Source of the DNA: Spinellus fusiger
Taxonomy: Eukaryota; Mucoromycota; Mucoromycetes; Mucorales; Phycomycetaceae
Length of the DNA stretch: 64,000 bases
Assembly: GCA_025094145.1 (NCBI GenBank)
Contig: JALLLS010000020.1
Coordinates: forward strand, 405,203-469,202
Direction of reading: 5' to 3'
Shown: in pieces, positions 4,091 through 61,935 of the stretch
How the letters are laid out: each line of letters begins with the position of its first letter
How positions within the stretch are numbered: position 1 is the stretch's first letter
Position numbers and translations under genes: made by a program
Notes under the pieces: generated by a model
The model's input: only the letters and a program-made list of their open reading frames with translations
What the model was told of the DNA's origin: nothing
The model's database searches: none

Positions 4091-4988
4091 AAGAAAACCC
4101 CTGAACCGTGGACTAGAGAGGTGCGAAGTGATTTTTTTTGTGTTCTTTATTGAGGAGGCTGTTGAGTGTGACGCGCTACTTGAAGTTGACAGTCCCAAAG
4201 AGGACAGGGAGGGGATAGGGTCAACTTTACCAGGTCAGTCACCCCACTCAACAGAGGAAGTTTTTACGAGAGTGGTGGTGGTGGTAATAGTGGTGGTATT
4301 AGTAGTAATAGTAGTAATAGTAGTAATAGTAGTAATAGTAGTAATAGTAGTAATAGTAGTAATAGTAGTAATAGTAGTAATAGTAGTAATAGTAGCAGCA
4401 GCAGTAGCAGCAGCAGCAGTAACAAAAACACCACCACTAACACCACCACTAACACACAGCGGGATTCTCCACCCACCCACCCACTCATAGACTGCCATTT
4501 GCTCAAGGATTCTTAACAATAGGAAAAACACATCCTCATGGCCCAGCTGTTTATAATAGAAAAAAAAAAGAAAGAAATCTCAACAAAATCCCTTGCCCAA
4601 CAGTAGAAGGAGAGTTGGGTGAGGACACTGTACTGAATGAAGATGGCCCTATAGATATATATTTACAGCCACATATAGAACATGCATAATAAACACAACC
4701 AAATAACCATTGAGCCACTCATTCATTCATTCATCAATCACTACCCAACAACACACATGAAATGGAAAAAAGCAGTGGTGATGATTCTGCAGGCCTTGTA
4801 TTTTATTATTACTATTGTCATTGTTATTATTCCTCAAGCAAAGAAAGGAACACTGAAAAAGAATCCTACTTACTCTGTTTGTGACGTATGCGAATCATGA
4901 CGCGTTTTTCTTTTTTTGGGAATACTCGAGGCTCCTTGCTCTCTTTTTCTCTCTTGTCACTTCTCACCTCTTCACGTTTCCTGACAGC
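4091..4988. repeat. Divergent promoter region with a (TAGTAGTAA)n minisatellite
   Basis: Intergenic region shared by the PPR gene (minus) and the RNA-binding protein gene (plus). From about 4267 to 4460 it is a run of GTGGTG, then roughly eleven 9-bp TAGTAGTAA units, then AGC/AGT triplets and ACCACCACTA units. All frames across it give only dipeptide or single-residue runs, so the long open frames there are artefacts of the repeat. Confidence 0.85.
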
Positions 4989-6742: not shown

Positions 6743-6959
6743 GTCTTTTTATTTTTTGCTTCTGTGCCAGTGTAGAGTAAAGAGAAGAGGGATTTCAGCT
6801 ATACACATTAGGGAGTTTTATTCTATTTGCCTCTTCAATACATTTTCTCTTTTTGTTCCTTTCATGGTTGTTTATGTGCCAAGAAGAGTGGGTGTAGGGG
6901 CTATGAGGGGTCTATAATGACTAACACATAAAGATGGAGATAGATGAGTAGACACCCTC
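6743..6959. other. 3' flank of the TIA-1/Pub1-type gene up to the LINE-A target-site duplication
   Basis: About 220 bp of AT-rich DNA holding the probable 3' UTR. No gene or repeat seen. It ends at the duplication that marks the insertion of LINE-A. Confidence 0.6.
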
Positions 6960-8019
6960 TGTACCAATACAGTTCAAAGTATTTTTTATTTTTTGGGTGT
7001 GGTTTGCTATTCGCGCATTGGGCATATCAGCCACCCTATGAGAACTTTTGGAAAAATAAATAAGAATAAACATATAAACACCAAATACAAAAGTGAAAAA
7101 AAATAATGCAAATGAATGGGAAACAGAAGGACAGAGAATATAAAACCTCAATGAGGGAAAAATAAGGGAAAAAATGAAAAAAAAAAAGATTGTAAATGAG
7201 AATTATGAATAGACATCCAAAAGGCCATAAAGTCAGCAAGGAAACCAGGACACCAAAAAGATAACCGTCATCCTGTGGCGATTCGAAATCCAACGAGGGA
7301 TACTTAGAGCAACTCGGACAATCCTGAGGACACAAATACAGCAACTACACTAGCAGCTTCTGGCTTTGCTAAACGGGCCAAGAATGGGTGGTAGAGGAGA
7401 TATCGGAGGAGAAGTGAGGATACAGCGTCTGTTGCTGCAGGAGTCTTTGCACTCTATGGCGGCGTTGGCGTTCCCGCTCAACACACCCATCAGCAGCCTC
7501 AATGAGCAGGCTACCAGCTGATGGCTCTACCTTAAAGTCTCGAGTAGACGTGGCTCAATCAATGGCTTGCAGCAGTATTAACAAACTGGGCCAAAGATCT
7601 TGCCATTTAACAAAAGACTTAACCATATGCGGCAAAAGATTTAGACAATAGTCAGTTGGATGAACGTCTTGTGGTGGGGCAGGAACTAGGAAGAACAAGA
7701 ACGTGGAGCGTTCATGGTCAATGAATTTGCATGTGAGAAAGTGGTCCATGTTAGCCGAAGGGTATCCACATTGGCAAGGAGCTGAAGGTGTTGGTGGTAA
7801 CCAAGCAATCCTTCATTTTAGTAGACGATGTCTTTCTTTGCGCGTGCACGGTAGTAGAAGAATTGGATCCCAAACAGGTCTACATAGTCCACGGGCTACC
7901 GTCACCAGCGGATTCTTGCCACGTACTAGACTAGTCATTTCACTTTGAAGACGTTCAAGATAAGCTACTTTTAATGGATATTTAGGAGGGTTGTGAGCCC
8001 GTCCTATTCTTTGAGCATT

Positions 8020-10970
8020 TTACCAGAGTACATTGCCACGTAGCTTAATCCATCTGGCTTTACTCTGGAGTGCTTCAAGCTGCGGGACAAGGCACCAGAG
8101 GAGGGTGTCTTCAGGAAGGGTAGCTGCGCGCTCAACAAATTTGGCTTGCAGATAAAGAAAACGAGAGTATATGTTAGGGAGGGCAGCTAATTGAGCAACC
8201 TGGATCGTTCCAAACCTAGCAGTAGCAGATCTAGCAAGACAAAGTCTCAGACAAGCAGACTGACAGATTTGTAGCAGGCGGATGCCTAGTCTATTGACAT
8301 TACAAATAGCCAACCCATACTCAAAGATAGGCCGAACAAAAACAGTATACGCTCTTAGGGCTGCTGTAATCCCAAAGCCATACATGTTTACACCCATTCC
8401 TCTCAGCTTTTGCATTACTGCAATTGCCTTGACTTGTGAGTGTGAGAAAAGTGCGTCTTAGTTAATACCTTGACGTGAAAAGGGGATACCAAGGTACTTG
8501 AAAGTATCACAGGTTGGAAGCTCGTTGCCATAGAGGTAAAACGGCACATTGGTCGGGGCATTGAGTACTTCACATTTGGAGGGACTCCATTTGTAACCAA
8601 GGAGGGTCGAGTGAATTTCGGCAAGTGCCAGCATTCGATGTATATCTTCTGGGCAGCCCATAAGAGCCACATCATCAGCATACAACAAACAATTCACAGG
8701 AGCCCAAGTAACAGTGACATGAGACGGACTGTAAGAAGAATCTGACGACTCAGAAGAGTAATCCGAAACTGTAGAAGTAGGAAAAGGATTGTGAAGGGAA
8801 TTCTGTAACTCGTCAAGCAATGCGTGAACAGTTGCCTGTGGGGAAGCAAAAGAGAAAGGATTTCGAGCACAGAGATTAATGGACCGTCCCATGGTAGGTG
8901 GGTGCATACCAACCAGTATTGGGGATACCGAAGCAAACCTCAAGAAACGTGGAATAGTATCAATGAAAATAGAATAAAGGAATGGAGAAAGAATAATACC
9001 CTGTAAGACTCCTCGTTTGGGTGCAATGTCCCGGGATGCTACATTTTTCAGAATTACATTCACCACAATGTCATCAAACAAATTCTGTGGTAGCAAGAGC
9101 AACGGCTGAGACACGAAGGGCATCAGCGACTCCCATATGACAGAGCGTTCCACACTATCATATGCAGCTTTAATATCTAGGAAGACGACGACTGGAGGTT
9201 TTGGATCTTGCTCTCCTGATCCTTGGGCAGCGTACAACCCCATAAGTTCGTGGAGACAGAGGGCCTGGTCTAGAGTTCCACGACGAGCGCGAAATCCACC
9301 TTGAGCCATGTCCAATGCAGGCATGGTCGAAAAGAGCTCCCAGCTATACATCTTTCTAAGAGCTTACGAAACACCGATGTCAAGCTAATAGGCCGATAGT
9401 TACTAGGGTCATCCTGCTCTCCTTTGTTTTTGTAAATAGGTACCACCTGTGTTGTTCTCCAGGCCACAGGCGTCCACGACCATCTCCAACACAATGTGAA
9501 GATTTGATGTAACAGAGGCACTAGCACTCGAACTAGGGGTTTGAGCATTTCTGCTCTAATATGATCAATGCCTGGTGCTTTTCGATTTGGCATCTTTCGA
9601 ATAGCAGAGTGAATAAAGTCTACGTCCCATGGAACTGGATTGTCTTGGAGAATAAACTCCTGACGCTCCTGTCTTTTCGTAGATCCGCCAAACACACTCT
9701 CTAGGTGGTCAATCATGCGATTGGCAGCATGCCGAGGGCCCTCTGGAGATGACAGGGAAATTGGCGAACGTCTCCGCAGCCTCATTCCTTTCACAGCACG
9801 TGTCATCTCTGTTAAGCCCTTACGGACTTTATCACAAAATACATGCCAGGTTTGTCGTTGTGCTTGCCTTATAGCCTTTTTCAAAGCTAAACACGCTTCC
9901 TCATACAAGCGGTGGGCTTCAATGCGTTCAATATCATTGCCTACCCGTCGTCTAAAACGATAAAGTTCTTGACGACGGTCAGCTAACTGTTGTAGATCAG
10001 CATTCCAGTAGCTTTTCCAAGCTTTTGGATGGGATTGTGCGCGCCCTACGCTATCATCCAGGGCCTTGTAGATTGACTCATTGAGTCTCTCAGCAAAGTC
10101 CTCCATCTTAACAGAGCACAACGGGGTTTTGTCTTCCAATATTTTTTGGATCTCTCTTTGCAGTTCACCTGTGTTCTCTGCAAAACATCGCTTGTACTGG
10201 TCACAGACTGTTTGTTTGTTTAAACGTTGCAGTCTCCAGAGGCGACGGACAGCTGTTTCTGTCATGAGCGGTGGCATGAGCACCGGCTGAAAGGACAGCT
10301 TACACAAGTGGTGGTCTGAACCTAACGTCAGATCGTCCCTAATGTGCAAGCACACTTCGGAGAAGTTGTAGCTTCTTGACAGGAACAGGTCAATAATGCT
10401 AGCAAACCGACGACCATCTGCTAGAATTCGCTCATATGTAGGCAAGCCAAATGCCAACTCTGAGTTCCACAAGGTTAGATCCTGACGGCAGATCCAGTCT
10501 TCAAATCCCACATGTCTGTCGTTTATGCCATGATCTCCAGTCAGGCGGCCTAAACGTGTATTCAGGTCACCAAGGACGAGTGTGAAGTCGTCTATGGGTA
10601 GTGAATTCAACCTTTCCGCAGCCTCACTAGACGACAGCCTCGGAGGTAGGTACAGACCATGGAGTGTATATGGGCCAATCCTACAGGAGACCACAAAAGG
10701 ATTAGTAATTGGTAAGGAATGTACATGGTAAGGAAAGTCAGGACGAATAAAGAACGAAACTCCATCAAAACCTCGTCCAGCATCACCATGGGCTGTAGCA
10801 TAGTTGTGTATTTGTATCCAGGGGCACCTCAACATTTGCATGTCTTTGGTCAGGAAAGTCTCTGTCACTAAAAGTATATCAATATCATTCTGCACACACA
10901 CATTCAGAACGTTCACCAGTTTGGGCCTGATTCCACAAGCATTCAATAGACCAATCTTCAGTCTATTCAT
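8020..10970 (-). pseudogene. LINE-A ORF2: AP endonuclease plus reverse transcriptase, broken
   Basis: The first segment (9270-10970) holds an APE-type endonuclease with the landmarks LNACGI, TETFL, LGDLNTR and GSDHHLCKL. The start of the RT domain follows (RKAPGIDHIRAEMLK, YRPISLTSVFRKLLER). A one-base frameshift near 9350 moves the frame to 8458-9351, which carries AQGGFRARRGTLDQA, FLDIKAAYDSVER, GVLQGIILSPFLYSIF and the catalytic box YADD at about 8665-8682. A TAA at 8458-8460 interrupts GIN-DALFSH, and a further stop lies near 8020. Past it the same frame continues with a Cys/His-rich C-terminal motif (CQCGYPSANMDHFLTCKF), itself preceded by a TGA. This is the normal EN-RT-CCHC layout of LINE ORF2, now inactive. 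Confidence 0.88.
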
Positions 10971-12208
10971 AATTCTTCTTGGTGGGTGTTTTGGGTGTCT
11001 CCCTCATCTTCTTCCATGGCTGAGCCTGATCCAAATGCCTGGATGGCCTCTTCTTCAAGGGTGGCGGGGCGGCTGGCAACTGGGGTCTTGGCCTTGAGAT
11101 CTGCCAAGAGCTTCTCAAAGGCAGTGGCAGAGAGGCGGGGAGTGGCATTACCAGAGCCAAAGTGGCGAGCAATGCTGTGCCCTAAGTGGGTGGGGGAACA
11201 AAGACAGGTGTTGGACACTCGTTGCTCAAAGAGTTTTTGGGCCATTACAGCCTTGGTGCTATCTGACTCCTGCTGGAGCTTAGGGTCTGCAATCACCGTT
11301 GCAGCTACTGGATCAAAGCTTGTCTGTGGCTTGATCTTTGATTTCTCAAGTTTCTCCTCGAGTTCTTGCTTGAAGCTACCGTGTACAAGCAGTGCAATTG
11401 TACCCCTTGCTGGGAAGTGGATGTCTATGATCCGTGACTGTTGGATCTTCAGTGATCCCAACATCTTGCGGATCTGGCCGTACTTGAGGTAGCGGCGACA
11501 GGGCAAGTATACAAAGTCGTATACTGAGGGCCCAGTAGGCTCTTGTAAGGCCCGAACTGTTTGTGCTCTAAGCACTGCTCTGGCCTTTGCTGTCTTCTTT
11601 GGTGGGGAGGCGTTCTTTTTAGCCATGTTGGCATAAGTGACAGTAGCCTTTTCTATGGCATCTGTGGGTTTCACTGTGGGGATGGGTGTGGGAGTAAGGG
11701 CAGGAGGTGATTTGGGTGCATTATCTGCACTCTTGGCATTGATCTGAGCCTGGAGAGATGTAATAAGGTCATCCTTGACCTTGACTTGTGCTTCCAATTC
11801 CTGGATGCGGAGTCCAATTGTTGCCATTTGTCTCTGAATATCTGACAGAAATGCCATCATCTGCTGGGTGAAGGTATCAGGCTTTTCTACCTCAATCATT
11901 TGATACTCGTAAGTATTTGCACGAGTGCGCTTACTAAGTAGTCTGGGTTTTCTGCTGTCTGAGTTAGGAATGGTGGTGGCAGTGGTGGCCTCAGACACAA
12001 AGGGTCTGACAGGTGCTGGTACAGGAGGTTGCTTGATGGTTGGTGGTTGGCCAGGATCCTTAGTTGGTGTATCCAATGTGTACTGTGTACTATGTGGGTG
12101 GATGGGGATTGTTGCTGATAGATGGATGTTACTTATGTTGAGTTTTGCGATTTGTATTTTTACTCTTTTGGGGTAATATTGATTACACGAAAGAGCCCCA
12201 TGTAGCAA
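10967..12208 (-). CDS. LINE-A ORF1 (Gag-like, coiled-coil)
   Basis: Open frame of about 413 codons at the 5' end of LINE-A. It has a basic Pro/Thr-rich N-terminal part, a predicted coiled coil (heptad-like run IGLRIQELEAQVKVKDDLI), a Pro/Lys-rich linker and an acidic C-terminus (AMEEDEGDTQ). This resembles nucleic-acid chaperone ORF1 proteins of non-LTR elements, although no zinc knuckle or RRM was recognised. The first ATG in frame is at 11899, well inside the frame; the upstream 103 codons lack a start. The stop codon overlaps the ORF2 start as ATGA at 10967-10970, which suggests termination-reinitiation for ORF2 translation. Confidence 0.75.
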   Translation of the reverse strand: MLHGALSCNQYYPKRVKIQIAKLNISNIHLSATIPIHPHSTQYTLDTPTKDPGQPPTIKQPPVPAPVRPFVSEATTATTIPNSDSRKPRLLSKRTRANTYEYQMIEVEKPDTFTQQMMAFLSDIQRQMATIGLRIQELEAQVKVKDDLITSLQAQINAKSADNAPKSPPALTPTPIPTVKPTDAIEKATVTYANMAKKNASPPKKTAKARAVLRAQTVRALQEPTGPSVYDFVYLPCRRYLKYGQIRKMLGSLKIQQSRIIDIHFPARGTIALLVHGSFKQELEEKLEKSKIKPQTSFDPVAATVIADPKLQQESDSTKAVMAQKLFEQRVSNTCLCSPTHLGHSIARHFGSGNATPRLSATAFEKLLADLKAKTPVASRPATLEEEAIQAFGSGSAMEEDEGDTQNTHQEEL

Positions 12209-12209
12209 C

Positions 12210-13575
12210 TACAGTGGCTTTCAATAAAACAATGGTATTTTCAAATTCAGACCATAATTTTACCCTTGAATTTTTTTTTATTAAACATTCTTCATTTATT
12301 GCTTTTCCACTCTAATGTCTACCTCATCTAACACCACCGAACAACCCATGAGACCTCTTGGGAACAGAAAGAAGAATATCGATGACTTCACTCGATGTCT
12401 CATTGCTCAAGAAGCCACCGTCAATGGGACCAGCCTGGTTGCCATTTCTGCTAGGTTTGGAGTTTGTCAGCAGTCTGTTTCCCTTATCGTAAAGAGATAT
12501 AAGGAAACTGGCTGTTTCAAGGCCAAGAAGAGCACTGGGCGCAAGCCCATTCTGACAGAGAGAGACAAGAGAGAGGTCAGTTGCAAAGTGACAAGAGATT
12601 CATTCTAGACAATGGATCAACTTCGCAAGCAGATGACCACCCAAGTGTCCAGGAGCACCTTCTCAAAATTAATGAAGAAGCTTGGCCTGTTTTCTTGCAG
12701 GGTGGTCAAGAAACCTTCTCTCACTATTAAACACAAGAAGCTGAGGCTTGCTTGGGCCAAGGCCCATCTCCACTGGACTGAGGAAGACTGGAAGACAGTC
12801 ATCTGGTCCGATGAGTCAAAGTACCAACTCATGAGGACCAACAACCGCAACAGAGTGGTGCGCAAGAAGAAGGAGGGGCTGCCCCCAAAAAACATCAAGC
12901 CCACCATGAAGTTTGGTGGTGGTAGCGTGATGGTGTGGGGATCTTTCTCTGGTGAAGGTGTTGGAAGGTTGGTGCCTGTGAAGGGCAGTATAGACAGTAG
13001 AAGATACATTGATATCTTGAAGGAGAATTACTACCCTGAGCTGGCTCGACTCAAGGCACTGAATCCAGAGGTAGATTATGTTCTTCAAGAGAACAATGTC
13101 AGCTGCCACAAGAGTAGAGAGTCCAGGTTGTGGAAGGCAAATGAGAGCATTGCCACTATGGAGGGGTGGCCCTCACAAAGCCCCGACCTCAACCCTATAG
13201 AGCATTTGTGGGAGGAGCTAGACAGAGCCATCAGAAAAAGGATGACCCCAGCAAGCTCTCTTCAAGATTTGGAGGTGCTCTTGTTAGAAGAATGGGAAAA
13301 TATTCCCAAGGACACCACAGACACCCTCATTGCCAGCATGGGGCGGAGATGTAGGGCTGTCATTGAGGCCAAGGGTGGAAGCACCAAATATTAAGGGTTT
13401 CCACCTAATAAACTTGTATTTATTATTCTGTTGACCTTCTTTATACTTCATCCAATTTTCAAGTCTCTACTGTGTGTTTAATGTATGTTTTTATTACAAA
13501 GAATAAGTATTTCCATAAACAAGAATCATAACGGGGTATGAAAAAAAATCCATTATTATTTTGAAAGCCACTGTA
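12210..13575 (+). mobile_element. Tc1-A: Tc1/mariner element with intact ends
   Basis: The element starts TACAGTGGCTTTCAA at 12210 and ends with its inverse at 13561-13575; the terminal 15 bp match perfectly and decay further inward. TA dinucleotides at both ends fit the usual TA target duplication. Inside lies one transposase frame on the plus strand. Both termini have been hit by LINE insertions, so its original flanks are split: the left flank is now at 6960 and the right flank at 14620. Confidence 0.9.
12315..13394 (+). pseudogene. Tc1-A transposase, inactivated by a nonsense codon and loss of a catalytic Asp
   Basis: Tc1-family DDE transposase of about 360 codons. An N-terminal helix-turn-helix region covers roughly residues 20-75 (LVAISARFGVCQQSVSLIVKRY). 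One in-frame TAG at 12606-12608 interrupts the domain between the HTH and the catalytic core; the frame continues unchanged to 13394. The catalytic core shows WSDESKY with the first Asp, and PSQSPDLNPIEHLWEEL with the Glu. The second Asp position reads QENN instead of QEDN, so Asp is replaced by Asn (a single-base change). I count 35 residues between the second and third catalytic positions, one more than classic Tc1 DD34E. It cannot be active as read. Confidence 0.9.
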
Positions 13576-13586
13576 CCATAGGCCTC

Positions 13587-14613
13587 GGGCTCACAACCCT
13601 CCTAAATATCCATTAAAAGTAGCTTATCTTGAACGTCTTCAAAGTGAAATGACTAGTCTAGTATGTGGCAAGAATCCGCTGGTGACGGTAGCCCGTGGAC
13701 TATGTAGACCTGTTTGGGATCCAATTCTTCTACTACCGTGCACGCGCAAAGAAAGACATCGTCTACTAAAATGAAGGATTGCTTGGTTACCACCAACACC
13801 TTCAGCTCCTTGCCAATGTGGATACCCTTCGGCTAACATGGACCACTTTCTCACATGCAAATTCATTGACCATGAACGCTCCACGTTCTTGTTCTTCCTA
13901 GTTCCTGCCCCACCACAAGACGTTCATCCAACTGACTATTGTCTAAATCTTTTGCCGCATATGGTTAAGTCTTTTGTTAAATGGCAAGATCTTTGGCCCA
14001 GTTTGTTAATACTGCTGCAAGCCATTGATTGAGCCACGTCTACTCGAGACTTTAAGGTAGAGCCATCAGCTGGTAGCCTGCTCATTGAGGCTGCTGATGG
14101 GTGTGTTGAGCGGGAACGCCAACGCCGCCATAGAGTGCAAAGACTCCTGCAGCAACAGACGCTGTATCCTCACTTCTCCTCCGATATCTCCTCTACCACC
14201 CATTCTTGGCCCGTTTAGCAAAGCCAGAAGCTGCTAGTGTAGTTGCTGTATTTGTGTCCTCAGGATTGTCCGAGTTGCTCTAAGTATCCCTCGTTGGATT
14301 TCGAATCGCCACAGGATGACGGTTATCTTTTTGGTGTCCTGGTTTCCTTGCTGACTTTATGGCCTTTTGGATGTCTATTCATAATTCTCATTTACAATCT
14401 TTTTTTTTTTCATTTTTTCCCTTATTTTTCCCTCATTGAGGTTTTATATTCTCTGTCCTTCTGTTTCCCATTCATTTGCATTATTTTTTTTCACTTTTGT
14501 ATTTGGTGTTTATATGTTTATTCTTATTTATTTTTCCAAAAGTTCTCATAGGGTGGCTGATATGCCCAATGCGCGAATAGCAAACCACACCCAAAAAATA
14601 AAAAATACTTTGA
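13587..14613 (+). mobile_element. LINE-B: 5'-truncated copy of the same LINE inserted at the right end of Tc1-A
   Basis: Contains only the last 1.03 kb of the LINE: the ORF2 C-terminus with its Cys/His motif and the 3' UTR. It is flanked by a perfect 17-bp duplication ACTGTACCATAGGCCTC at 13570-13586 and 14614-14630. The first six bases of that duplication are the terminal bases of the Tc1-A right TIR. Identity with the matching part of LINE-A is near complete: two open frames of 102 and 64 codons are identical and an 81-codon frame differs by one residue. It also shares the internal TGA (LLK-stop-RIAW) with LINE-A. Confidence 0.93.
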
Positions 14614-14630
14614 ACTGTACCATAGGCCTC
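14614..14630. repeat. Right target-site duplication of LINE-B
   Basis: The 17-mer ACTGTACCATAGGCCTC, identical to 13570-13586. It marks a target-primed insertion at the junction between the Tc1-A right end and chromosomal flank. Confidence 0.93.
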
Positions 14631-17952: not shown

Positions 17953-19298
17953 TACAGTCACGCACCATTGAATTTAATACTTGCCTAAATTTAAAAAATA
18001 AAAACTTTTTTTGCATAAAACTCTTATTCTTTCCAAATATTATTAAACCAACACAATATGTCAGATACATTCTCAGAAACACATACTCGTGGAGAATATG
18101 ATAAAGCAGAAGATAAAAAGATATGGGGCATTTATTACCTGTTTAAGGCTGGATTAAAATTGACTATCATCGCAAACGTAGTTGAGATGAAAAAGCCCAC
18201 AGTTCAAAATATTATCAGAAATATCAAAGAACATGGGTCACCATTGCGTTTAAAGAGTCATGGAAAACCCAGAAGAGTGAATGAGAGGGACCTCAGACAC
18301 CTGGAAAAGGTCATTAGAGAGGATCCATTTGCCTCATATATTCAGCTGAAATTGGAAATGTTGAAGATTCAGGTTGATGTATGTAAAAACACCATTATCC
18401 GTTACTGTAAGCAGTTAGGGTTCGGATATTTTTCTCCAGCTCACAAGCCAGCCTTAACTGAAAAACACAGAGAAACGGCTTCGTTGGGCTAAAGAACATG
18501 TCAATTGGACGAACGACCAGTGGAAAGGCGTTGTCTGGTCTGATGAGTCCAGGTACACCGTGAAAGGAAACGATGGAGGTGCCCGTGTAATCAGAAAAGT
18601 TGGAGAAAGGTATGATCCTAATCCTATTGTTTTAACAACGAAGTTTGGTGGCGGAGGGGTCATGCTTTGGAGCTGTTTTTGGGCGGGCGGATTTGGCCCA
18701 TCAGTCTTTGTTGATGGCACTGTAAACCAAGACGAATATATCAATATTTTGGCTGGTGAGTTCCATCTTTGGTTCATGGAATTGCACCAGAAAGAAGATA
18801 GGGAGTTTCTGTTACAAGAAGATGGTGCTAGTTGTCATACTGGGGCCTATGCCAGATGGTGGAAAGAGACACCTCAGATTAGGGGCTTTGAGTACTGGCT
18901 CGCACAAAGTCCTGACTTGAGCCCAATTGAACACGTCTGGTGGGCCTTGGAAAGACGAATTGAGGAAAGAAGGGTATCTATTACCAATGTTGAATGTTTG
19001 AAGGCTCTACTTGCAGAGGAGTGGGAGAGGGTCAGTGTTGAACTTGCACAACGATGAGTTCTGAGTATGACCGACAGATGCCAGGCTGTAATTGATGCCA
19101 AAGAAGACCATACAAGCTATTAACTATATTATTATTATTATTTTATTTTCTATAATTAAAAATATTAAGCTTTGGTGTGCTTAAGTTTGAAGCTTCTAAA
19201 TCAAATGTGGAGTATTTTATCTAATGTTGAACATATCCTAAATATTTCGTCCTGAAATTTATTTTCAAAAGTATTAAATTCAATGGTGCGTGACTGTA
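17953..19298 (+). mobile_element. Tc1-B: second Tc1/mariner family, nearly intact
   Basis: The terminal inverted repeats begin TACAGTCACGCACCATTGAA at 17953 and match the inverse at the right end (19269-19298) for 30 bp without mismatch. A TA pair is at each end. The element is about 1.35 kb with one transposase frame. Long perfect TIRs and only two lesions in the transposase point to a fairly recent copy. Its TIR differs from Tc1-A after TACAGT, and no LINE is attached to it. Confidence 0.92.
18058..19121 (+). pseudogene. Tc1-B transposase with one frameshift and one in-frame stop
   Basis: The first segment (18058-18492) holds the N-terminal HTH region (KLTIIANVVEMKKPTVQNIIRNI). A one-base shift near 18475-18485 moves the reading to the frame beginning KRLRWAKEHVNW. 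The catalytic residues are intact: WSDESRY, LLQEDGASCH and QSPDLSPIEHVWW. I count 35 residues between the second Asp and the Glu. A TGA at 19055-19057 cuts the C-terminus, after which the frame resumes with MTDRCQAVIDAKEDHTSY before the true stop near 19121. Family assignment is firm; the copy is inactive as read, although only two point changes separate it from an open frame. Confidence 0.9.
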
Positions 19299-20362: not shown

Positions 20363-21392
20363 AATACATACAAGAATCCTAAGTTAAATCTATAAGCATA
20401 TTGTATCTTCTTTACTTCATTAAAATCTTTAGTTAAGAAAGAATAGATAGAAATACAATAAGAAAAAGGAAATAGATAGTTATCTTATTAGCAACACTGA
20501 ATAGTGTCAGCTATTATTTATTATCCATTGATGTGATGGTGTCGTTAATGACTTCTTAGGTCCAAAGGTATTTGGTTTAGTTAACGTACAATTAACTCTG
20601 CTCTTATTTATTCAACTTGTTTGTTATTCTTTTATACTTCTTTTATACTTTAATGATTATTACAGATAGAAGAACTTCAAGGAAATCACCACCAAAAGAC
20701 ATACATTCTAATGCAGGCTGTTGTGCTTTTATATTATCTCTAAAAGATCTGTCAACTGTATTAAATACGCTACGACTTAGATGCTTTATTCAATACCATT
20801 GATTCTATAGCTGTTTTATTTATTTATTTATAAACTGTTAAATGTTAACCTCTCGTTTCTTTAATAAATGGGGTCTGAGGTAACAGCATCCTGTACACCA
20901 CTCAATATATCTCTTCTCAATGTGTCTTGGTTATGCCGTATAGAATTCAGACAACCTTGTTCAATGTTAGCATACATGTCTACTCTATACTGATAAAGAG
21001 GGCTTTCCAAATAAATGCAAGTGATTGGAATCATTTATGTACATTAGTCTGAAACAGTAGTGTTTTATTGTGCTTATCATGATATTCTGGTTATTGATTG
21101 AGCATGTTTTTATAGTCCAACCTAACTGTCCTGTAGGAAAAAGAAGTACTTAACTCATAGGACTGTATGACTGATTCATCTCACTCATTCTTTGAAGGAA
21201 GCTCATTTCTTGGTCTTATCACAATGTCACTACATTCTGTTTGGTATCTATCATTTCTTGGACAGTTAAGATGACTTTTGTACAAATAGCCACACTTACA
21301 ACAGCTTATCTATCTATTTTGAAGATGGTTCACTCAGATAATGCTATTAGGTATATAATTTGGATAAACATACTTGTTCAAGAAAGTGTGAA
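20363..21392. other. AT-rich gap, nothing assigned
   Basis: About 1 kb with only short open frames. No RNA gene or recognisable transposon end seen until the TIR-like sequence at 21393. Confidence 0.55.
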
Positions 21393-59504: not shown

Positions 59505-61344
59505 TACAGTGGCTTGCTAGAAACTTAGGTAGATTTTTTACATTCCGATATGTTTATGTAATAGAAAATACATATTCTTTGTCATAAAAACACAGATTAA
59601 ACACACAATAAAAAATTTAATATTAGATTAAGTATAAAAAAAGGTCAACAGGATAATATATACAAGTTTACCGGGTGAAAATACTCAATATTTAGTGTGG
59701 CCACTCCTTGCTTCAATGACAGTCCTACATCTCCGATACATGCTCGAAATAAGGCTGTCTGTAGTATCCTTAAGAATTTTCTCCCATTCTTCTAATAAAG
59801 AAGCCTATAAATCTTGAATAATACTTCTATATTTCATTTTCTTAATAATTAATCTGTGAGATTATTCAGACAAGTATAAATAACGAGACTGAACAATGAT
59901 TTGTATTGAGTGAAGAAAGGTTCATTACTTATACTTTCTGTGGGTGCTTATCCTTCAGTGGTTTCTACTTTATGTTAGTATGGATAGTCAACTATGTGGC
60001 TGCTAGATAAATACAACTTTATGGTTGGTTCATTGGATAAGCACTCCATTATTGAAACCTTCAGTTATTATGAGTCTTTACTCAATTGACTCTGATAGGT
60101 CATTATTATTCTGTTAGGATATATAGATGATAGCAGCTCATTAAGTGTCCAATAATAAATTGAGCTTAGAAGGTTGATTTGTAGTTATGACCAATCAGTG
60201 AGATGATACAGAGATGTACTATGGTACTTGTGTGCACTCAAGCTTTCATAGAGTATTCTGAATGTCACAGCACACTACTCATGCTAGCCAATTCATTGAG
60301 AATCTTTGAATTGAAATCGGAGCACGACACCCTGTAAAGTTTGTTTCACAGAATTTCTATAGGGATTGGATCAGGGCTTTGTGTGGACTGACCCTCGATA
60401 ACAACAATGTCTTTGTATTTCTTCCATATATTGTATTCTTGACTCTTATGAAAGCCAGCATTTTTCTCTTAAAGTGTATAATCAATCTATAGATCTAATG
60501 TATTGATATAGACCAGTTCGAGACTGTGATTCTCCCTTGAGATCTCAATATATGTTTTGCTGTCTATAATGCCTTTTAGAGGTACACATATTCATATGCC
60601 TTCACTAGAAAAAGAACCCTACACCATTACACTGCCACCTCCATACTTCTTTATTGGCTTCATGTTATTTAGAAGCAGTTTTTCCTTCTTTTTATATACT
60701 ATTCTGGTATGGCTACTGGTCCTCATCCACTGGTACTTGGACTCATCAGACCAGATGACTATCTTCTATTCTTCTACTGTCTAATAAAGATAGGCCTTGT
60801 ATCAAGCAATATTTAACTTTTTGTGCTTGATGCTGAGAGAATGCTTCTTAATCACCCTGTAAGAATACAGGCCAAGATTCTTCATCATCATCCTGAAAGT
60901 ATTCTTGGACACTTGAGTGCTCATTTACTTGTAAAGCTGATCCACTGTCTAGAATGGATCCTTCTCTAATTCACATTCAACATTTATCTCGTTTCTCTAA
61001 CTAAAAATAGAATTAACCCTAGTTTTTTCTTTGATCCTAAAACATCTACTCTTCATTTATCTCTTTAATATACAGGAAACAGACTAAATACTAACTTTAG
61101 ACTTAACATAGATATCATCAGTCAAACTGACATTTATGTTGGCCCTGTGAGCAATCGTACTCTCAGTGAAGTCTTCAATATATATATTTCAGGATATCTT
61201 TTTTTTCGTTCAGTGTTGTTAGATTGGGTAGATAGTATGGTGGAAAAGTGATAAATAAAAAGCGTTTAACAAAACTTTAAATTCTCGAGGGTAAAGATAT
61301 AGTCTGGATTTTAAATCTACCTAAGATTCTAGCAAGTCCCTGTA
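59505..61344 (-). mobile_element. Tc1-A2: decayed relative of Tc1-A with recognisable TIRs
   Basis: Left TIR TACAGTGGCTTGCTAGAAAC at 59505; the right TIR at about 61306-61344 is its imperfect inverse (ending AGCAAGTCCCTGTA). Transposase relics read on the minus strand: EEWEKILKDTTDSLISSMYRRCRTVIEARSG at 59690-59800, and SPDPIPIE at 60355-60400, then further N-terminal parts to about 61000. At 1.84 kb it is about 470 bp longer than Tc1-A; extra unrelated DNA lies at about 59820-60300. All frames are broken. Confidence 0.87.
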
Positions 61345-61935
61345 GAGAGAAAGAATAGTGAGATCTTTGGCCCAGTTTGTTAATACTGCTGTAAGTAATT
61401 GATAGAGCCATTATCTGTTAGCTTGATTATTGAATCTTATGATGAGTGTGTTGGGCGGGAACGCCAACGCCGCTATAGAGTGCAAAGACTCCTTCAGCAA
61501 CAGACAGTGTATCCTCACTTTTCTTCTGATCTATTCTCTACCATCCATTTTCAAACCGTTTAGCAAAGCTAGAAGCTGATAGTGTAGCTGCTGTATTTGT
61601 GTCCTCAAGATTGTTCAAGTTACTTTGAGTGTTCCTCGTTGGATTTCGAATCGTCACAGGATGACAGCTATCCTTTTGGTGTCCTGTTTTCCTTGCTGAC
61701 TTTATGGCCTTTTGGCTGACTATTCTTTACTATCATTTATTATCATCTCTTATTTTACATTATTTTATCCTTCTGTTTATTTTTCTTTATATTTATTTTT
61801 TATTTTTGTATTTAAAGTGTTTGTATGTTTATTTTAATTTTTCAAAATGTCTTATAGGGTGGCCATTAGGCCCAATGCTCAACTATCAAATCATACTCAA
61901 TATATATAACACTTTAAACTGCAGAGAGAAAGTAG
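61339..61935 (+). mobile_element. LINE-C: old 5'-truncated LINE copy at the right TIR of Tc1-A2
   Basis: Last ~555 bp of the same LINE family (61361-61917), starting AGATCTTTGGCCCAGTTTGT, which matches LINE-B at 13988. Diverged and with small deletions relative to LINE-A and LINE-B. The flanking duplication is imperfect: CTGTAGAGAGAAAGAATAG (61340-61358) against CTGCAGAGAGAAAGTAG (61919-61935). As for the other two copies, the duplication starts within the terminal TIR hexamer and the LINE 3' end (...CACTTTAA) joins ACTG. Confidence 0.87.

Follow-up and report, generated by a model that had tools for sequence, protein, structure and literature searches.

Multicopy RNA genes, microsatellites, and telomeres are the main targets known for sequence-specific long interspersed nuclear elements (LINEs). 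Tx1L and Tx2L of Xenopus laevis, members of the Tx1 clade, reportedly lie in the DNA transposons Tx1D and Tx2D (work by Christensen, Pont-Kingdon, and Carroll of 2000 and 2001). Here, we describe LINE copies from a 64,000-nucleotide stretch of contig JALLLS010000020.1 of the fungus Spinellus fusiger (hereafter the window), two of which, LINE-A and LINE-B, flank the Tc1/mariner transposon Tc1-A, and from a search of the 38.08-Mb assembly. These copies very probably represent a target-primed, apurinic/apyrimidinic endonuclease (APE)-type non-long-terminal-repeat retrotransposon whose preferred target is the outer ends of Tc1/mariner transposons. It resembles Tx1L and Tx2L in being an APE-type LINE that favors a particular site of DNA transposons. 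Whereas those elements reportedly use one site in one transposon family, however, it occupies the outermost end of the terminal inverted repeat (TIR) of many Tc1/mariner groups, and the TIR is rebuilt. With the LINEs of the R1 and Tx1 clades (R1, TRAS, SART, Keno, and others), it shares an endonuclease and a reverse transcriptase (RT), a precise 3′ junction, and a repeated target, but its target is a terminus common to many transposon families and its preference is leaky. Transposons are listed among LINE targets in general in one published account (PMC4640811). A limited literature search at the level of titles and abstract openings, which tests novelty poorly, found no report of a LINE that targets Tc1/mariner ends. 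LINEs that target transposons are already known; what appears to be new here is the use of the termini of many Tc1/mariner groups as a target that is rebuilt.

The features around Tc1-A are as follows (TSD, target site duplication; ORF, open reading frame).

6974..12199, minus strand: LINE-A, full length, 5226 bp, from its 5′ end word, ORFs, and Pfam matches
10967..12199, minus strand: ORF1 region of LINE-A (stop-to-stop frame 10967-12208)
9270..10970, minus strand: first piece of LINE-A ORF2, with the endonuclease and the start of the RT (PF03372, E = 9.1e-07, above cut-off)
8458..9363, minus strand: second piece of LINE-A ORF2, in a different frame, with the RT core (PF00078, E = 1.5e-15, above cut-off)
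6957..6973, minus strand: 3′ copy of the imperfect LINE-A TSD, starting ACTGTA (by eye)
12200..12215, minus strand: 5′ copy of the imperfect LINE-A TSD, its ACTGTA being the left TIR end of Tc1-A (locus L067)
12210..13575, plus strand: Tc1-A, a Tc1/mariner element of 1366 bp including both TA, from its TIR pair and transposase
12210..12241, plus strand: left TIR of Tc1-A
13544..13575, minus strand: right TIR of Tc1-A
13570..13586, plus strand: 5′ copy of the LINE-B TSD, its ACTGTA being the right TIR end of Tc1-A
13587..14613, plus strand: LINE-B, 5′-truncated, 99.9% identical to LINE-A
14614..14630, plus strand: 3′ copy of the LINE-B TSD, matching at 17/17 positions

LINE-A consists of ORF1 followed by an ORF2 with an APE-type endonuclease and an RT, the latter ORF being broken by a frameshift and a stop. 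The ORF1 region gave two weak Pfam matches, both below cut-off and one of them to a coiled coil, and the ATG of ORF2 overlaps the ORF1 stop (ATGA, by eye). An AP-like endonuclease and an RT within one ORF, the hallmark of APE-type LINEs, are here spread over the two frames of the broken ORF2, and a relative (P0004) has both domains in a single protein. Matches of the ORF2 pieces to LINE proteins in PDB were to L1 and R2-type proteins, the first piece matching L1 ORF2p. A protein search with the ORF2 piece gave 20 top matches, of which the first 13 showed 34 to 55% identity over parts of the query. Eight of these 13 carry an organism name, all of which we take to be Mucorales (Phycomyces, Circinella, Rhizomucor, Apophysomyces, Absidia, and Syncephalastrum); the other 7 of the 20 include Phycomyces again and two animal proteins. 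Taken by themselves, these relatives point to a probable Mucorales host. No LINE relative was confirmed in the viral contigs scanned.

Tc1-A combines the TA-flanked inverted ends and the DDE transposase of Tc1/mariner elements, with DDE_3 and HTH_Tnp_Tc3_2 matches above the Pfam cut-off and an in-frame stop at 12606-12608. Its left TIR adjoins the 5′ end of LINE-A and its right TIR adjoins LINE-B, as the initial annotation had seen from the sequence; a third copy at a Tc1 end, LINE-C, is added below. The perfect 17-bp duplication reported for LINE-B (ACTGTACCATAGGCCTC, 13570-13586 versus 14614-14630) was recovered in full, and the LINE-A duplication is indeed imperfect, the two copies (ACTGTAGTTGCTACATGG and ACTGTATTGGTACAGAGG) requiring a one-base gap for alignment past ACTGTA (by eye). 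The view of LINE-A and LINE-B as two independent insertions with different 5′ truncations fared less well: LINE-B is truncated, but the 5′ end of LINE-A was found 90 times in the genome and belongs to a full-length copy. Moreover, the two are 99.903% identical over 1028 bp (window 6968-8001 and 13586-14619), compared to 93% in the 3′ untranslated region for the next closest copy (41 places scored), so their sequences are not independent.

To place these insertions in a genome-wide context, we searched the assembly with words from both ends of the LINE. The 5′ end word, with up to 3 mismatches, gave 90 matches (backwards control, 0), and the bare 3′ word gave 873 (control, 152). The 3′ word joined to ACTGTA gave 484 (control, 2), in agreement with the junction of CTTTGA to ACTGTA first noticed at LINE-A and LINE-B. 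The 5′ flanks were read for all 90 full-length copies and for 31 truncated copies from 60 loci; at the remaining loci, the LINE extended beyond the locus, the match held no LINE or no 3′ end, or the copy (L058) was the same as another (L027) and was left out. After removal of 4 copies whose last 24 upstream bases were identical to those of another, 117 copies were retained, including LINE-A and LINE-B. The motif was scored as present when the 34 bp immediately preceding the LINE held ACTGTA with no more than 1 mismatch, and 36 bp of flank were required for classification. Flanks were called TIR-type when a motif-anchored alignment to the flank of another insertion scored at least 16, a cut-off picked after the scores were seen, and the flank held no LINE 3′ end. 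One copy, L068, was added to this class on the grounds of a partner TIR and of its target family, a Tc1-type element that occurs in the window. The Tc1/mariner assignment draws on transposase in Tc1-A and in one window family (motif by eye) and on TIR ends in the other groups.

The motif lay directly upstream in 105 of the 117 copies and was exact in 85; 11 copies had no motif (one of them, L141, with a TIR-like flank by eye), and in 1 the flank was too short. The 105 motif-bearing sites comprised 75 TIR-type sites, 10 sites behind a LINE 3′ end, and 20 other sites. TIR-type sites made up 75/117 copies overall, 58/87 full-length copies, and 17/30 truncated copies. They fell into at least 10 sequence groups, 52 flanks forming ten clusters at a stricter cut-off. 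Two copies counted among the 20 other sites, L074 and L036, look TIR-like by eye; L074 has a partner TIR, and L036, with the variant end ACTATA, scored 14, just below the cut-off. Most copies thus sit at the same sequence, as expected of a sequence-specific LINE, and the targeting is a strong preference rather than a strict rule. The genome-wide flank check set beforehand by the initial annotation came out in its favor, with a Tc1/mariner-type TIR on the 5′ side of most copies and many groups beyond Tc1-A.

As a control, we scored the CTGTA sites of window positions 15200-58000 in the same way. Only 3 of 122 were TIR-type, compared to 75 of the 105 insertion sites (Fisher p about 3e-31), which bears out the earlier suspicion that insertion at the same site exceeded chance. 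Two of the three passing control sites belong to the family targeted by L068, and the third belongs to the repeat into which L024 inserted. Over cut-offs from 10 to 16, between 91 and 84 of the 105 insertion sites passed (TIR and LINE ends together), versus 5 to 3 of the 122 control sites. Across the whole window, 3 of 21 CACTGTA sites are TIR ends (scores 23 to 31), and the other 18 score 9 or less. Genome-wide, ACTGTA occurs 31450 times (reversed control, 27590) and CACTGTA 9558 times (reversed control, 4888); with the reversed word as a rough control, TIR ends could make up at most about 49% of CACTGTA sites, if the entire excess consists of them. Among insertion sites with an exact CACTGTA, 60 were TIR-type and 3 were other (p about 1e-15 against 49%). 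A chance location at TIR ends is ruled out by these control CTGTA and CACTGTA sites.

The transposon ends and the orientation of the LINEs toward them were also examined from the transposon side. Among 30 full-length loci for which 1500 bp of flank was available, 10 had an upstream inverted partner starting TACAG, and 7 of these partners lay at a distance of 1.32 to 1.37 kb. The TIR word TTGAAAGCCACTGTA, with at most 1 mismatch, gave 198 genome matches (control, 1), and among the 100 exact matches listed, the Tc1-A TIR end formed at least 22 inverted pairs 1187 to 1375 bp apart, Tc1-A included. A full-length LINE lay 10 to 18 bp outward of 7/100, 6/62, and 5/51 ends in three TIR families among the matches listed; pooled, 18 of 213 listed ends carried a full-length LINE in the right orientation and 0 of 213 carried one in the opposite orientation. 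For the 61 TIR ends of contigs C1 to C56, LINE 3′ ends within 6 kb were tallied by direction and strand. Outward, 20 of the 61 had one on the same strand and 3 on the opposite strand; inward, the numbers were 4 and 15, respectively. The last group is as expected if a LINE occupies the opposite terminus of that transposon.

One further Tc1/mariner-type family occurs in the window (17953-19298 and from 21393 onward), with the TIR ...GTGCGTGACTGTA, a DDE-like ORF (by eye), and related inverted copies; this family is the target of copy L068. A further Tc1 of the Tc1-A family, at C135:169094-173220, has LINE 3′ ends outward on both sides, as judged by position.

The truncated copies share a constant CTTTGA-type 3′ end and have many different 5′ ends. 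Of 30 compared, 9 had perfect duplications of 15 to 17 bp and 4 more had a single mismatch, which in 3 cases was at the first base. Hence, 13/30 combine the constant 3′ end and variable 5′ truncation of LINEs with duplications of 15 to 17 bp (at most 1 mismatch), within the range of about 10 to 20 bp given in one source (PMC6895275). Three copies locate the break. On the 5′ side, L017 and L026 have GCTGTA and L024 has CCTGTA, whereas the 3′ junction is ACTGTA in all three, and paralogous empty sites have CCTGTA for L024 and GCTGTA for L017. Because of these non-A 5′ sides and empty sites, we infer that in these copies the A is the LINE end, that the target starts at CTGTA, and that the primer is TACAG-3′OH. 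In the other clean cases, both the LINE and the target have the A, which leaves a one-base uncertainty in the break. The break proposed by the initial annotation, TACAGT|G, was therefore near the right site but not at the right position, which in these three copies is TACAG|N, farther out by a single base. At L036, ACTATA stands on both sides of the LINE, the variant end having been copied into the 3′ duplication, so the LINE arrived after the variant end had arisen. ACTGTA is consequently not simply the LINE 3′ end, a possibility that the initial annotation had kept in view: it lies upstream as the TIR end, and the TIR upstream of the LINE together with the empty sites rules this reading out. 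The empty site of L024 lies within the window, in a repeat at 20981-21295 that is 86% identical across the junction.

The last TIR bases are part of the duplication, and the end on the transposon side is therefore kept complete. The earlier idea of insertion into the TIRs holds as regards the site, at the TIR end, but not as regards disruption, since the end is rebuilt by the duplication. Several loci carry repeated insertions. On contig C1 (L103, L085, and L047), a TIR (974056-974070, minus strand) adjoins a TSD beginning ACTGTATAAAAAAAGC; two LINEs come next, each of them followed by another copy of this TSD. On C115 (L071), the order is TIR, ACTGTACTAAAAAC, a 482-bp LINE piece, GCTGTACTAAAAACCC, and a full-length LINE. 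On C164, the TIR-end LINE L147 and the LINE L082, 5.5 kb further on, have ACTGTACTATGGTAG in common, with a short LINE piece between them, and L007 shows a similar arrangement, in which LINEs in head-to-tail order at a single TIR end are separated by copies of one TSD. Among the 10 sites behind a LINE 3′ end, 3 can be followed back to a TIR bearing the identical TSD, 1 leads to no such TIR, and the others could not be followed. Because a second hit at the same TIR yields the same tandem, LINE 3′ ends are only candidate targets in their own right.

These observations suggest the following model. The LINE's own endonuclease would nick the strand running from flank into transposon after 5′-...TACAG, that is, behind the TA plus CAG, the three outermost bases of the transposon. 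The 3′-OH of TACAG, annealed to the LINE RNA, would then prime its reverse transcription, giving a copy that ends ...CTTTGA(A). The second strand would be cut roughly 10 to 20 bp further out in the flank, and the resulting duplication (15 to 17 bp where clean) would consist of the last TIR bases plus flank. The preference for TIRs beyond (A)CTGTA may come from longer DNA recognition or from a protein tether. Because the duplication leaves the TIR complete, the transposon stays unbroken and the target survives for further insertions.

Alternatively, the cut may not be the LINE's own: the LINE could prime on the 3′-OH that a Tc1/mariner transposase exposes at flank-TACAG, or dock on a TIR-bound transposase. 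Tc1 and Sleeping Beauty transposases presumably nick 2 to 3 bases inside the element, on the same strand and at the same place as the proposed LINE nick. Because the proposed primer end, TACAG, coincides with a cut three bases inside the element, we take such hijacking of nicks to be a real rival. The targeting of many TIR groups and of both ends of one element, the 7 of 75 TIR-type targets that are one base off ACTGTA (later mutation is possible), and the favoring of TIR ends beyond the CACTGTA word alone are all consistent with it. Nevertheless, it seems unlikely, given that LINE-A has an endonuclease domain of its own and that CTGTA occurs close to the LINE in 15 of the 31 sites classed as other or motif-less, where no Tc1 transposase should nick. 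These 15 sites argue that the LINE has its own liking for CTGTA and that this word still counts. If hijacking were true, one LINE lineage would exploit many Tc1 families, leaving them unharmed, and would occupy a given element at its two ends.

An endonuclease that reads (C)ACTGTA and nothing more, with TIR ends dominating as the commonest such sites, would account for the word shared by TIR, LINE-end, and other targets and accords with the genome-wide excess of CACTGTA. We consider this improbable, as 60/63 exact CACTGTA insertion sites are TIR-type, compared to the limit of about 49% in the genome or the 3/21 in the window, and ACTGTA occurs at the 31450 places in the genome counted above. 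Differential survival, in which ACTGTA words are hit broadly by the LINE and copies located at transposon ends are retained because they do no harm, agrees with a TIR left whole by the duplication. It also agrees with L011, L015, and L017, which are identical over 520 bp at separate loci and look recent: L017, the only one with its 5′ flank read, is at a non-TIR site. Intergenic ACTGTA words outside TIRs should be equally harmless, however, yet they are far less used, and we doubt that survival explains the pattern. Finally, the order of events could have been reversed, with ACTG native to the LINE 3′ end, a target of TA plus flank, and Tc1 elements, which insert at TA, arriving later beside LINE 5′ ends. 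A similar junction would be expected, but Tc1 would have to strike the same spot beside most LINEs. The empty non-TIR sites of L024 and L017 have CTG before the TA without any LINE, and ACTATA stands on both sides of L036; insertion of Tc1 beside preexisting LINEs is contradicted by these sites and is highly improbable.

Several observations weigh against a preferred target at Tc1/mariner ends or narrow its basis. Neither a TIR nor a LINE end was found at 20/105 motif-bearing sites, and 11/117 copies lack the motif altogether. Among the truncated copies, 17/30 show no clean long duplication: 3 are decayed, in 8 the match is confined to ACTGT(A), perhaps owing to recombination or decay, and in 6 no credible duplication is seen. 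The 3′ junction reads GCTGTA in L044 and in the LINE upstream of L071, where the TIR side is ACTGTA; therefore, the final base of the LINE is variable. Partner TIRs were found for 10/30 full-length loci, one of which (L074) is counted as other. The truncated copies came from the 30 best matches plus the first 30 places listed rather than from a random sample, and the duplicate filter used identical flanks only, so that L003 and L004, with a common 3′ flank, were both kept in the other class. The paired copies LINE-A/LINE-B and L009/L010 are near identical and provide no independent sequences.

On contig C46, a Tc1-like stretch has L009 outward on one side and L010 outward on the other; the two are 99.9% identical over 923 bp, and about 135 bp are missing from L009. 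The two TIR ends there differ, and the flanks of L009 show no duplication. In both pairs, the partners are closer to each other than to other compared copies. Gene conversion and local copying are candidate causes of this near identity.

Elsewhere in the window, an older insertion was found at a decayed transposon.

59505..61344, minus strand: Tc1-B, decayed, related to Tc1-A (68% and 77% identity by BLAST), interrupted by other sequence
61339..61353, plus strand: 5′ copy of the LINE-C duplication, CCTGTAGAGAGAAAG (by eye)
61354..61917, plus strand: LINE-C, old, 5′-truncated, at the right end of Tc1-B (74% identity by BLAST)
61918..61932, plus strand: 3′ copy of the LINE-C duplication, ACTGCAGAGAGAAAG, matching at 13/15 positions (by eye)

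The end of Tc1-B at 59505-59511 scores 23 as a TIR. A BLAST search of the window with LINE-A (E 1e-8) found three LINE places, LINE-A, LINE-B, and LINE-C, and 3/3 are at Tc1 ends. The window also contains an array of 9-base repeats of the GTAGTAATA type at 4248-4436.

Taken together, our results very probably place the common terminus of a whole transposon superfamily among LINE targets; this terminus is plentiful and mobile, can be hit without harm, and is restored after every insertion. Such targeting links class I and class II elements, and the exact position of the nick would separate, in a testable way, cutting by the LINE itself from transposase cuts that it has taken over.

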